From a bacterium (GTDB lineage: Bacteria; JAJRZV01), in contig JAJRZV010000019.1 of NCBI GenBank assembly GCA_024275095.1, positions 1 through 20,257 of the forward strand: a DNA stretch of 20,257 bases, read 5' to 3'. A program made the translations under genes and the position numbers. Below the pieces are notes generated by a model. It searched no databases and had not been told where the DNA came from. It saw only the letters and a program-made list of their open reading frames with translations. This document shows positions 3,660 through 19,820 of the stretch, piece by piece. Within the stretch, counting starts at the first letter, position 1; the number at the start of each line of letters is the position of its first letter.

Positions 3660-4715
3660 ATGAAAAAATGGGTGCTTTTTTCGGCGGTGTGTTTATTTGT
3701 TGCCTCCTGTGGAGAAGATCGCTGTCCAGTGAAGTTGTACGCCTTCTATTACGGATGGTACGGGACACCAGAGGTCTCTGGCCGTTGGTATCACTGGGAC
3801 AGTTCCGGTCACAATCCTGAACTTACAGGTGCTGAAGGGTTGCCGGATATTGCATCTGTACGTCATCCCTATCCTGAATTGTACGATTCAATGGACATTG
3901 AGGTATTACGGCGCCATGTGGCTCTGGCACAAGAAGCCGGTATTGACGGCTTCGTCTTTTCCTGGTGGGGGCGGGACAGAAGGGAAGATGATGTGCTGGC
4001 GCTTCTCATGCAGACTATTCACGAGGCACACGCCCCGCTTCAGCTTGCCGTTTATTACGAAAGTGTGCCGCCGGAGGGAATGGAAGGAGTGATGGAAGAT
4101 GTGGAGTACCTGTACAACCGATACATGAAGGATTTTACCTACCTGAAGGAAAACGGCAGCCCCGTGCTTTTCGTTTACGGTAGAGGAATTTTCCCCGTCC
4201 TCTGGTGCCTTGGCGAACCATGTGGAGAAAACGTATCCATGCTGGAGGACTGGAGCAGTGTAACCTCTGCTTTCCCCGACGTGTTTTTCGTGGCCGATGT
4301 GATGACATATGCCTTCAGCCGTTCATTTCTGCCTCTTGTTGCCGAAATGGGCTTTGGAGGAGTCCACATTTACAATCCCTTACAGGAAGTGCGTGGTGGT
4401 ATGAACATGAAGAAACTTTACCAGAATTTTTTGTGGGAGTCGCAACACAACGGGCTTCTTCCATACGTAACCGTCATTCCCGGCTATGATGATACCCTTC
4501 TATCCCGGCAATATCCTGTTTATCTGGACCGTGAGAATGGAGGACTTTATCGTCGGCTGTGGCTCCAGGCTGGTGCTGCAGGGGCACGAAGGATACTTCT
4601 CACCTCTTTTAACGAATGGCACGAGGGCACGGAAATCGAGCCCAGTTTTGAGCTTGGTCGCATGTATATTGAACTTACTCGCCAGTTAAAACAGGAATTG
4701 TGTGGAGGGGGGTAA
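3660..4715 (+). CDS. GH99-like (endo-alpha-mannosidase/mannanase type) lipoprotein
   Basis: The 351-residue protein starts with a lipoprotein signal peptide; VASC puts the acylated cysteine at residue 17. The mature part resembles glycoside hydrolase family 99 and its relatives: FYYGWYGTPE at 29-38, GRWYHWD at 41-47, AGIDGFVFSWWG at 93-104, and the hallmark NEWHEGTEIEP at 318-328. The two glutamates three residues apart (E319, E322) match the spacing of the catalytic pair described for GH99 enzymes, so it is probably active. GH99 enzymes cleave internal alpha-mannosidic bonds; the substrate here is unknown. Length is near normal. It is a single-gene unit, divergent from the TPR operon and convergent with the SDR gene 24 bases away. 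The ribosome site is weak (AAGG too close to ATG) and a TAGAAT box lies only 6 bases upstream, so a leaderless message is possible. Confidence 0.8.
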   Translation: MKKWVLFSAVCLFVASCGEDRCPVKLYAFYYGWYGTPEVSGRWYHWDSSGHNPELTGAEGLPDIASVRHPYPELYDSMDIEVLRRHVALAQEAGIDGFVFSWWGRDRREDDVLALLMQTIHEAHAPLQLAVYYESVPPEGMEGVMEDVEYLYNRYMKDFTYLKENGSPVLFVYGRGIFPVLWCLGEPCGENVSMLEDWSSVTSAFPDVFFVADVMTYAFSRSFLPLVAEMGFGGVHIYNPLQEVRGGMNMKKLYQNFLWESQHNGLLPYVTVIPGYDDTLLSRQYPVYLDRENGGLYRRLWLQAGAAGARRILLTSFNEWHEGTEIEPSFELGRMYIELTRQLKQELCGGG

Positions 4716-6874: not shown

Positions 6875-8017
6875 TTGGTTTTTCCGGTATCCATATCAGA
6901 GAAGGCTCAAAAAGTGCTTGCTGAAGATGGATTGCAGCCTGAATGCATAGCTCTTGCAGGTGATGTAAGTAAAGTGGGCATTGCAGATGCGTTCGAATTC
7001 ATCAATGCGCTTCGAAAAACAGGAGTGCTTTATTTTTTCAATGATAGAGAAGCTCTCAGGCGCTTCTATTTCGAGAACGGGGAACTGATATTTACCACTT
7101 CAGAGAACAAGGCGGAACGTCTGGGAGAGGTGATGGTGAGCAAGGGAATAATAGATGAGGCCCAGCTTCGCGATGCAGAACAGCACCTTCGACCGGGTGC
7201 AAAAATTGGTGCTGTGCTTGTGGCGCGTAAACACATTACGCCAAAAGAATTATTCGAAGGTGTCAAGGAACAAATACGCGCTATTGTTTCAGGTGCCCTC
7301 ACCGAAGAAAAAGGGTATTTTTTCTTTGCGGCAGGTCCGGTTAAACACGAGAATATTGTGCATTTCAATATCAATACCCGGAATTTGCTCCTCGAGTGTA
7401 TAAAAACTCTTGATGAACGCAATTACATAAAGCGTCTTTTGCAGGCGGCACAGGTGAAAGTTACACGAACACCTGGTAAAGATATCACCCCTCTTTATTT
7501 GCGCGTGGCCCGCCTTCTCGAGGACGGGCTTGGTATCGAAAAAGTAAGTGAGATTACAGGGCTGTCCGGTGAAGAGATCCTTGATGTTATACTGGAACTT
7601 CGCCGGCAGGGAGTTGTAAGTATCCGCCCGGTTTCGAAGGGCAGCCGGGAAGGAAGGGATTTTAAAAGATTTATCAATGATGCAAATTCATGGCTCATGG
7701 ACGCTTTCTCAGTAGTGGCAAGCCGTACTGGCGAGGAGAAGGCCCTGGAGCGCCTCAATTCCTTTTTTGAGGATATTCCTGATGAAATGGACAGGCTTTT
7801 TCGTAATGTGCGCCTGGATGCCATGGGTAAACTTGACGGAGACAGACTGGAAAAGAACCTCCAGGCGTTTCCCCTCTCTCGTCGCTGGGAGGTGCTTCTT
7901 ACAGGAATGAGGGAATTGTTTAATTTTGTTTTATTTGAGATACTCAATACTGCGGGAAGAGAAGCAGCTCGCCCCTTTGAAAATATTATTAAATTACTGG
8001 AGAGCAGTCATGGCTGA
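6875..8017 (+). CDS. DUF4388 (PATAN) domain protein with MshEN-like repeats and winged helix, copy 1
   Basis: The protein (up to 380 residues) has a DUF4388/PATAN-like N-terminal domain (about 24-80: LAGDVSKVGIADAFEFINAL, then RFYFENGELIF). Next come two repeats of the type found in type II secretion ATPase N-termini (RLGEVMVSKG from 82, KIGAVLVARK from 110, ending at Q133), a winged-helix-like segment (about 208-250) and a helical C-terminus. Such proteins belong to bacterial signalling systems, but no effector domain is recognisable. A paralogue with the same order follows directly. The start is uncertain: TTG at 6875 has AGGGG only two bases upstream; GTG at 6914 has GAGAAGG at a better distance and would shorten the protein by 13 residues. 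The stop overlaps the next gene's start by 8 bases. Confidence 0.82.
   Translation: MVFPVSISEKAQKVLAEDGLQPECIALAGDVSKVGIADAFEFINALRKTGVLYFFNDREALRRFYFENGELIFTTSENKAERLGEVMVSKGIIDEAQLRDAEQHLRPGAKIGAVLVARKHITPKELFEGVKEQIRAIVSGALTEEKGYFFFAAGPVKHENIVHFNINTRNLLLECIKTLDERNYIKRLLQAAQVKVTRTPGKDITPLYLRVARLLEDGLGIEKVSEITGLSGEEILDVILELRRQGVVSIRPVSKGSREGRDFKRFINDANSWLMDAFSVVASRTGEEKALERLNSFFEDIPDEMDRLFRNVRLDAMGKLDGDRLEKNLQAFPLSRRWEVLLTGMRELFNFVLFEILNTAGREAARPFENIIKLLESSHG
7999..8004 (+). promoter_or_regulatory. Ribosome binding site fixing the start of DUF4388 copy 2
   Basis: GGAGAG at 7999-8004 lies 5 bases before ATG at 8010. This decides for that ATG over an in-frame TTG at 7926, which would add 28 residues with no counterpart in the paralogue and overlap copy 1 deeply. 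Confidence 0.75.
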
Positions 8018-9305
8018 ACGTGTCCAGCTCATGATCAAGAAGGGCGGTGTAATTCCCCTTACCCGGAAACTTTTGAAAATTCTGGGTGCAGGAGATGGTG
8101 ACCGTTTTGACGTGATTTTCGTGGATGATGGATATTTGTTTCTCGCTCGTGCGGGTGAAAGAGGTATTAATGTGTCACTTTCAGGAGACCTTCAATACAC
8201 AAACATCGCGGATGTGTTTTCCATGCTGAGCATGTCCCAGCGTACAGGAGTCCTTATACTTCTTACTGACGGTAAAAAGAAAAATATTTATTTCAAAAAC
8301 GGCGAAATTATATACGCATCCAGTAATGAAAAAGAGTTTTTGTTAGGACAGATTCTTTACAAAATAGGTTTTCTTTCTGATGAACAGCTTGAGGAGGCAG
8401 AGAAGTCTATTGAAACATCCGGCGAACGTTTCGGAGCCATACTCATCAAAAAAGGGTTTCTCACCCCCAAGCAGTTGTGGGCAGGTGTGAAATACCAGCT
8501 TGAGGAAATCGTGTATTCTGCTTTTGAGCTTACACACGGGCATTTTGTATTTATCGAAGGTGCTGAGCCCCCACAGGATGTGGTGAAGTTTTCACTCAAT
8601 ACCCAGAGTCTTCTTATGGAAGGATTCAGACGTCTGGACGAGGGCAATGTTATCAAACAGGCGATCCCCTCTCTCAAGGCACGCCTGCGCATTAATCCGG
8701 ATAAAACCCCTTCTGGTTTAAGCGAAAGTTTGCTGAAGGTGTATCAGGTTATTGAAGACGGGCTTTTAGTTGAGGATGTCATACGGCGAACCCGGATGGG
8801 AGAATTCAATACTTTGAAGCTCCTGCACCATCTGGTCAATCTCGGATTTGTGTTCGTTGAGGGAGCAGTTCCTCCGGAGAAGAGGCCGGAAGCAGCTGAC
8901 CTTCGCATGATGGTGCTCAGGTACAATACGCTTTTTACCAAGATTATCACGTGCCTGCGCGAGCACAACGTGAATATTCGCTTTAAAGAGCAAATTGCTG
9001 ATTTTCTCGAAGGTGTAACAGAAAGGGTCAGAGAACTTTTCAGAGATGTCGAATGTGATGATACAGGCTTCTTTGACCCTGACGCGCTTCTTGAAAATGC
9101 TCAGCGGCTTTACATTACAGATAATGTCAGGTTTCTTGATATGCCCGAGTTTAACATGCTGCTTCTCAAGCAACACCTTCAGGAAGGGCTTAATGAAATA
9201 TTGTCCTTTCTGCTTGTGGCTGCACGCAGTTACCTTACCGAGGAAGATTACGAAAACCTGCTGAAGGAGACCGATGAAATTAGAAGCGAACTGGAAAGGA
9301 CCTGA
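8010..9305 (+). CDS. DUF4388 (PATAN) domain protein with AbrB-like N-terminus and MshEN-like repeats, copy 2
   Basis: This 431-residue paralogue of the preceding gene has an extra N-terminal segment (1-50; KKGGVIPLTRKLLKILGAGDGDRF... pattern) that resembles a SpoVT/AbrB swapped-hairpin, a fold often used for DNA binding. Residues 55-110 are DUF4388-like (LSGDLQYTNIADVFSMLS, then IYFKNGEIIYA). Two MshEN-like repeats follow (LLGQILYKIG from 111; RFGAILIKKGFLTPKQL from 140, ending at Q163), then a winged-helix-like part (about 243-283) and a helical C-terminus ending in a charged helix. Its ATG sits inside the end of copy 1 (8-base overlap), and its own 3' end overlaps pyrF by 32 bases. It probably acts with copy 1; whether it controls the flanking nucleotide genes is not known. 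Confidence 0.82.
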   Translation: MAERVQLMIKKGGVIPLTRKLLKILGAGDGDRFDVIFVDDGYLFLARAGERGINVSLSGDLQYTNIADVFSMLSMSQRTGVLILLTDGKKKNIYFKNGEIIYASSNEKEFLLGQILYKIGFLSDEQLEEAEKSIETSGERFGAILIKKGFLTPKQLWAGVKYQLEEIVYSAFELTHGHFVFIEGAEPPQDVVKFSLNTQSLLMEGFRRLDEGNVIKQAIPSLKARLRINPDKTPSGLSESLLKVYQVIEDGLLVEDVIRRTRMGEFNTLKLLHHLVNLGFVFVEGAVPPEKRPEAADLRMMVLRYNTLFTKIITCLREHNVNIRFKEQIADFLEGVTERVRELFRDVECDDTGFFDPDALLENAQRLYITDNVRFLDMPEFNMLLLKQHLQEGLNEILSFLLVAARSYLTEEDYENLLKETDEIRSELERT

Positions 9306-17652: not shown

Positions 17653-18738
17653 ATGAAGGGTAACCCCGTTCTTTTTATCACCGGTTCTACCGGTTTTATT
17701 GGAAAACGCTTGGTAAAGAAAGCACTCGAGAAAGGAGCGGAAGTATACGCTCTCGCACGTGAAGGTTCAGAACCGAAACTCCTGCGGTATCTGGAGCAAA
17801 AAAAGGTCTCTCCTGATGGTTTGTATTTCGTCATTGGTGACATATGTGCACCAGGTGTTATTAAAGATCCTGCTGTGGCTGAAGAGGTACAGGAACGCAC
17901 AACTCACGTGATCCACGGCGCGGCTGTATATGACCTCTCAGTACCCAGGCCCGTGGCAAAGCGCGTTAATGTTGATGGCACGCGGGCAGTGCTGGAATTC
18001 GCCAGCAAGGCGAAAAAGCTCAAGCGTTTTACACATCTCAGTACCATTGCTGTCTCGGGTGATTACCGTGGCATCTTTTATGAAGAGATGCTGGATGTGG
18101 GCCAGGGTTTTACAGACCATTACGGGCGTACAAAGTTTATTGCAGAGAAACTTGTGAGGGAATGGGAGAGTCGTTTTCCCGTAACCATCATTCGGCCTGG
18201 AGCTGTGGTGGGTGAGATGGCAACGGGAGAGACTGAAAAATTTGATGGCCCATACATTATGATGCGATTCATCTACGCATCACGCTGGCTCCACTTGGTG
18301 GTGCCGGGTAGCGACCAGTCATATCTCGAAGTTGTTCCTGTGGATGTACTCGCTGAGTTTATTCTCGAGATTACTCTGGACTCTGCCGCTGGCGGGCGCA
18401 CGTTTACTGTTGTGGATCCGGAGCCCATGAGCATGGGAGAATTTATCGATCGGGTGTATGAACGCATTAGCTTTTATAAACCTCTCTTCAAGTTCTCGCT
18501 CAAACCCGTTGCTGCTTTCGTTAAGGCACCGGTTATTAAGCCCGTACTCAATGTGGCCGGTCGCATTGCCGGTTATCCCGTAGAAGGTATTCACTACGTG
18601 ACTCGTGAAGTACTGCACGATGCCAGCAACACCCTGAGTTTCGCAGCCCGCAAAAACATGCGCCTTCCGCGCTTTAATGAGTATATAGATGCCATCTGTA
18701 CGTACTTTGAGAAGGAAGCACTCGGCCGGAAACATTGA
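17653..18738 (+). CDS. Extended SDR (NAD-dependent epimerase/dehydratase or acyl reductase-like)
   Basis: This 361-residue protein is an extended short-chain dehydrogenase: nucleotide-binding TGSTGFIG (10-17), HLST at 128-131, the catalytic Y157-G-R-T-K161, and IIRPGAVVGE (179-188). Extended SDRs include sugar epimerases, 3-beta-hydroxysteroid dehydrogenase-like enzymes and fatty-acyl reductases; the LxxxxxRxxVDGTRxVLE pattern and hydrophobic C-terminal part (281-305, rich in K, P, V) suggest a lipid or isoprenoid-linked substrate, but this is a guess. The start is ATG after AAGGAGA. Its TGA overlaps the TTG start of proB (TTGA), so the two are coupled despite no evident shared pathway. Confidence 0.85.
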   Translation: MKGNPVLFITGSTGFIGKRLVKKALEKGAEVYALAREGSEPKLLRYLEQKKVSPDGLYFVIGDICAPGVIKDPAVAEEVQERTTHVIHGAAVYDLSVPRPVAKRVNVDGTRAVLEFASKAKKLKRFTHLSTIAVSGDYRGIFYEEMLDVGQGFTDHYGRTKFIAEKLVREWESRFPVTIIRPGAVVGEMATGETEKFDGPYIMMRFIYASRWLHLVVPGSDQSYLEVVPVDVLAEFILEITLDSAAGGRTFTVVDPEPMSMGEFIDRVYERISFYKPLFKFSLKPVAAFVKAPVIKPVLNVAGRIAGYPVEGIHYVTREVLHDASNTLSFAARKNMRLPRFNEYIDAICTYFEKEALGRKH

Positions 18739-19820
18739 GTAAAAAAGCCGTACTCAAAGTAGGGAGCGCTGTCCTTGTAAATAATACGGGGAAGTTTTCA
18801 CTTCGCCGCATTCACAAAATCGCAGCGGACGTGGCATGTCTCCGCGAGAACGGATGGCAGGTGTTTGTGGTTTCTTCTGGTGCGATCATGATTGCCATGC
18901 ATCATCTTGGATTGACCGAAAGACCTTCAAAAGTGGAAGACCTCCAGAAGCTGGCAGCCATTGGTCAACCGAGACTGATGCAGGCCTATGAGCGGGCTTT
19001 CCGCCGCAGAGAGATAGAAGTGGCACAGGTGCTCCTTACACATTACGATTTTGAACGAAGAAATAGTTTTCTCAATGCTCGCCACACTATTACCTCACTG
19101 GCACGAGCGGGCTTTGTCCCCATTATCAATGAAAATGATACGGTGGCGGTGGAATAGATTAAGGTGGGAGACAATGATACGCTTTCGGCACTGGTAGCAG
19201 CAGCGGTCGAGGCGGATGCTCTCCTCATCATGAGCAACGTACCGGGAATTGTTAACCCTTCCACAGGAATCATAGAAAAAATGATCAATCCGCGCGAGCG
19301 ACCTGAAAAATACGACAGTGGCACAAAAACTCCGGCAGGGGTGGGAGGGATCGTAACCAAGTTTCGTGCTGCACGCATTGCCGCTTCGCATGGCATTCCC
19401 ACATACGTGGGCGATGGTCGAGACAAAACCTTCATTCAATCATTTCTGGAAGGGGCCTTTAGGGGCACTGTTTTTCCACCCGAAGACAGGGGATTGAGGG
19501 GTAAAAAACGCTGGATAGCCATCCTTCAAAAACCCAGAGGAACGATCGTTGTAGATGCCGGGGCGGCAGAAGCGTTGAGGGCGAGAGGTAAAAGTCTTTT
19601 GCCCCGGGGAGTGACAGGTGTGAGGGGTTCATTCAGCAGGGGTGATGTTGTAGAAATTTTTACTGAAGACGGTCACCTGGTGGGTCGGGGCATTACCGCA
19701 TACAGTGCACAGGAACTTCGCAAGATCCAGGGTTGCCGAACTTCGGAAATTGAAAGCATCCTGGGCTACCGCTATTCCGACGAGGTTATTCACAGAGACG
19801 AAATGATTGTGGAGCGGTAA
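18735..19820 (+). pseudogene. proB: Glutamate 5-kinase with PUA domain, interrupted by in-frame TAG (pseudogene or recoded)
   Basis: ProB phosphorylates glutamate, the first step of proline synthesis. The frame spans 361 codons from TTG (overlapping the upstream stop) to TAA, the full family length. It has LKVGSAVL (7-14), VVSSGAI (45-51), FVPIINENDTVAVE (127-140), then TAG at codon 141 (19155-19157), then IKVGDNDTLSALVAAAVEADALLIMS without any frame change, GGIVTKF, and a complete C-terminal PUA domain (about 270-361). In the family the sequence around the stop normally reads NENDTVAVEEIKFGDND, so one codon, usually Glu, is replaced. Everything else appears under constraint. Downstream restart at GTG 19164 lacks a ribosome site and would omit the catalytic N-terminus. 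proA is not in the window. Confidence 0.88.

Follow-up and report, generated by a model that had tools for sequence, protein, structure and literature searches.

The proB gene analysed here (glutamate 5-kinase; 18735–19820, plus strand) has its full length but is interrupted by a single in-frame TAG at codon 141 (19155–19157), which is probably one wrong base in the consensus of a draft metagenome assembly. Similar lone changes from sense to stop are dispersed among the conserved genes of this genome, and the TAG would be one of them; the living cell would most likely have a sense codon, with Glu expected, at position 141, and a working ProB. What the analysis adds is that in-frame stops occur in at least 13 conserved cellular genes, proB included, among them genes that a growing bacterium needs.

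The proB gene and its setting

The window, i.e., the whole stretch of 20,257 nt analysed, is an entire contig (C110) of a 2.45-Mb genome in 136 contigs, 97% complete; the genomes compared with it include no other of the same phylum. The contig ends share exact 141-bp overlaps, which suggests a short-read (de Bruijn) assembly with k = 141. The assembly lacks a 16S rRNA gene, and no tRNA for Asn, Ile, or Ala-UGC is among the 43 tRNA genes identified in it; the rRNA operon region is therefore probably missing.

Within the window, proB lies between an NAD-dependent epimerase-like gene, which comes before it, and a prmA-like methyltransferase gene, which comes after. Judged by Pfam, the remaining main frames are intact. 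Two other regions may be mentioned in passing. At 6875–9305, flanked by purA and a gene for orotidine-phosphate decarboxylase, two adjacent frames overlap by about 90 bases and each carry an N-terminal DUF4388 domain, so that the pair looks like a tandem duplication; at 3660–4715, a glycosyl hydrolase family 99 (endo-mannosidase-like) gene adjoins a short-chain dehydrogenase.

Translated with table 11, proB starts at a TTG and runs for 361 codons, interrupted only by the TAG at codon 141 (INENDTVAVE, stop, IKVGDND). Read through the TAG, the product belongs to the TIGR01027 family (394.6 bits over residues 4–358 of 361; cut-off 186) and has both expected Pfam domains, AA_kinase (3–226) and PUA (269–343), bearing out the first-pass description of an otherwise intact proB. 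That description had also taken the codon to be normally Glu, preceding an IKxGDND motif, and this too holds: Glu occupies the position in 71 of 71 aligned relatives, a comparison that includes no close relative (the best ProB matches among other genomes' contigs are only 37–47% identical), as well as in two solved ProB chains aligned with it. Conservation is similar on the two sides of the TAG, with 19 and 20 identities per 30 residues. Codon 140, directly before it, encodes a near-invariant Glu, and the TAG replaces the second Glu of an EE-IK motif; GAG to TAG is a single-base step. A 218-aa frame (19164–19820, plus strand) opens at a GTG seven bases downstream of the TAG, but re-initiation there would yield no more than the C-terminal portion of the kinase domain plus PUA.

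The gene is present in a single copy, and nothing in its sequence points to prolonged decay. A count against a redundant reference set gave six departures from near-invariant columns, but these fell to two, including the stop, once the set was thinned, and a decayed gene was accordingly rejected. In the thinned, non-redundant alignment of 44 sequences, ProB departs from the near-invariant columns only at the TAG and at one Gly to Ala change; this is one missense deviation at 38 such columns, and the other sequences deviate to a similar extent. Outside the TAG, constraint on the gene thus shows no detectable relaxation, although a very young pseudogene would look identical. Both proA and proC are intact in the same genome.

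In-frame stops elsewhere in the genome

Open reading frames from four other genomes, together with 80 proB-bearing loci, were compared by tblastn with 873 kb of the genome (loci L160–L188 and L269–L288 plus the window), of which 236 kb was covered; the rest of the genome was searched by family only. A coding-potential scan of the same 873-kb sample served as a second search. In this sample at least 12 conserved cellular genes besides proB have one in-frame UAA or UAG each.

Nine of these were found by homology. Seven carry TAA, with the following bit scores across the stop: valS (L176:16604; 1233.8), dnaE (L188:1991; 1351.5), prfB, encoding RF2 (L188:8711; 521.6), dapL (L181:4219; 599.6), efp (L170:15233; 252.5), rplU, encoding L21 (L274:3924; 102.1), and the hydrogenase small subunit gene hydA (L274:17629; 324.9). 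The eighth, lon, has a TAG (L179:15553; 1007.6 bits), and the ninth, a malic enzyme gene, has a TAA (L168:5717) with its family match below the cut-off. The coding-potential scan contributed three more: an AOR gene with a TAG inside its Pfam AFOR_C match (L187:19574), rplC, encoding L3, with a TAA (L277:754; 251.1 bits across the stop), and an enolase-superfamily enzyme gene with a TAA (L280:7890) that is flanked on either side by Pfam matches, while the NCBIfam matches spanning it fall below cut-off. For prfB, dnaE, valS, dapL, efp, L21, hydA, L3, and lon, one family model spans the stop and scores above its curated cut-off. Many other same-frame candidates from the scan were rejected as ordinary gene ends with the next gene following. 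The tblastn search also returned an IS256 transposase interrupted by a TGA (L269:516).

Two radical-SAM matches found elsewhere in the genome (G000:C108:4061–4570 and G000:C96:2913–3305) likewise have one in-frame TAA each, the second match being weak. The prfB gene keeps its classic programmed CTTTGA frameshift site (L037:885–900; GGGGGTATCTTTGAC), besides the in-frame TAA about 80 codons later; the AAA GTG directly after this TAA could provide a restart for domains 2–4.

The same search of four control genomes gave one weak, doubtful case in 393 kb. Counting cases found by homology only, there are 11 in 78.5k codons here and 1 in 131k in the controls (Fisher p = 1.6e-4). There is no accompanying excess of frameshifts in the survey, and frameshift-prone sequencing was rejected as the source on that ground.

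The residues expected at the stops are mixed: Glu in ProB and AOR, Gln in L21 (19 of 19 sequences), Met or Leu in Lon, Arg in DnaE, and Asp or Glu in ValRS. Since they differ, no one tRNA fits all the sites, and recoding to a single residue was rejected for the same reason. In rplU, efp, and prfB the in-frame stop is TAA, yet the gene's own terminator is TAA as well. The 13 sites also lie nearer to contig ends than the covered bases do: 5 of 13 are within 2 kb, where 10% would be expected (p = 0.007; p = 0.017 for the median), although this test was chosen after the data had been seen and is supporting only.

Explanations for the stops

No growing bacterium can do without DnaE, ValRS, L3, and RF2. 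The stops in these four genes are therefore not plain null mutations: they are either wrong bases or read through. Release at UGA, which closes 354 of 682 long ORFs, depends on RF2 alone, and the genome has a single RF2. As life without these four proteins is not possible, base error is the best reading of most of the stops, probably including that in proB. Assembly error would be expected to leave isolated stops in indispensable genes, L21 also among them. Other points in its favor are the mixed expected residues, the closeness to contig ends, the use of UAA and UAG as ordinary terminators, the intact proline pathway, and the undecayed ProB. Base errors in draft metagenome-assembled genomes resemble the present case in being isolated substitutions that break essential genes, scattered, commoner near contig ends, and without a common residue or context.

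Several observations run against base error. The stops imply about 1.2e-3 substitutions per base, a high figure for a short-read k = 141 de Bruijn assembly, and on this point the case differs from base errors in other draft genomes. At that rate about 1.9 mismatches would be expected in 947 tRNA stem pairs; there are none, an outcome with a probability of about 0.15. UGA is under-represented, making up 0 of the 13 in-frame stops, or 1 of 14 if the transposase is counted (p of about 0.04 to 0.14 under uniform errors). Finally, the stops could not be shown to come with a corresponding excess of missense errors. The high rate, the clean tRNA stems, and the scarcity of UGA leave real, tolerated nonsense a slim chance, though none of them is decisive.

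As a second possibility, the proB TAG might be genuine, having arisen by nonsense mutation only very recently in the strain sampled, or it might be a minor allele that the assembler chose; the cell would then be a proline auxotroph, or some of the population would have no ProB. Not every bacterium requires proB, one base separates GAG from TAG, and the rest of the gene is undecayed, as a young event predicts. Short-lived in-frame stops have also been widely reported in bacterial genes (Belinky et al., 2021; PMC7918605). Those cases resemble this one in being single, apparently young stops in otherwise conserved genes, but that study rests on stops common to orthologues of two or more species, whereas here no relative has the stop and essential genes are affected. 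Points against a young allele are that proA and proC are intact, and that equally isolated stops occur in indispensable genes, so that a cause specific to proB is needless. A young allele is thus unlikely, although it is the strongest competitor to base error. The first-pass annotation had proposed either a one-base change, in a very young pseudogene or as a miscalled base, or UAG read as an amino acid. A one-base change still stands, with the stops in indispensable genes favoring base error over a pseudogene peculiar to proB; the reading of UAG as an amino acid has fared badly on RF1, tRNAs, PylS, and terminator use, as follows.

As a third possibility, the UAA and UAG codons might truly be there and be translated in part, by a suppressor tRNA that has escaped detection or because termination is leaky. 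Nonsense would then be nearly neutral and would build up sparsely, with UAA and UAG still terminating many genes. In keeping with this, every one of the 13 stops in cellular genes is UAR and none is UGA, those in the two radical-SAM matches are also TAA, there is no frameshift excess, and the tRNA stems are free of mismatches; the assembly also misses some tRNAs (Asn, Ile, Ala-UGC), so that a suppressor could be absent from it too. Against it, the 43 tRNA genes read in this 97% complete assembly include none with a CUA, UUA, or UCA anticodon, and a suppressor tRNA with CUA was one of the checks suggested at first pass. The loss of RF1 was another, and RF1 is intact: it has 354 aa and matches TIGR00019 with 504 bits (cut-off 423), and the genome has just one RF1 and one RF2. 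The 682 long ORFs of the 873-kb sample end in TGA (354), TAA (270), or TAG (58); UAA and UAG together thus close 48% of them, with no excess of back-up stops after UAR terminators. The expected residues vary among the sites. A C at +4, the leaky termination context, is found at none of the 13. A recoding structure was looked for after the proB TAG, and none was found, the downstream fold being nothing unusual (z = -1.0). Partial suppression is accordingly improbable, and the more specific proposal, that a deep-branching bacterium tolerates sparse UAA and UAG in essential genes by unseen suppression while using both as terminators, seems a long shot.

The remaining proposal, reassignment of UAG across the genome (as in codes 15 and 16, or as pyrrolysine), has in its favor one TAG at an invariant Glu and can be set aside: TAG is rare within conserved genes and not avoided as a terminator (58 of 682 long ORFs), RF1 is present without a CUA tRNA, 28 ABC_tran matches contain no in-frame stop, and, for the pyl system suggested as a further check, the only PylS-model match has 26.8 bits, well below the cut-off of 178, similarly weak matches arising in most control genomes. 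In genomes with UAG or UAA reassigned, a gene contains the codon many times and the cognate tRNAs are present. The systems known (codes 6, 15, and 16, and the Blastocrithidia type with UAR as Glu) share with proB a UAG at an invariant Glu, but differ in that the frequency here is about 1 per 7,000 codons, no such tRNA was found, and RF1 is intact.

Implications

If base error is the right reading here, two cautions follow. Where a lone in-frame stop is met in a single draft genome, the indispensable genes of the same assembly should be checked before a pseudogene or a change of code is proposed, and this genome is unfit for claims about single bases without its reads. Should the stops prove real instead, UAA and UAG in dnaE, valS, rplC, and prfB would show strikingly that a bacterium can tolerate nonsense.
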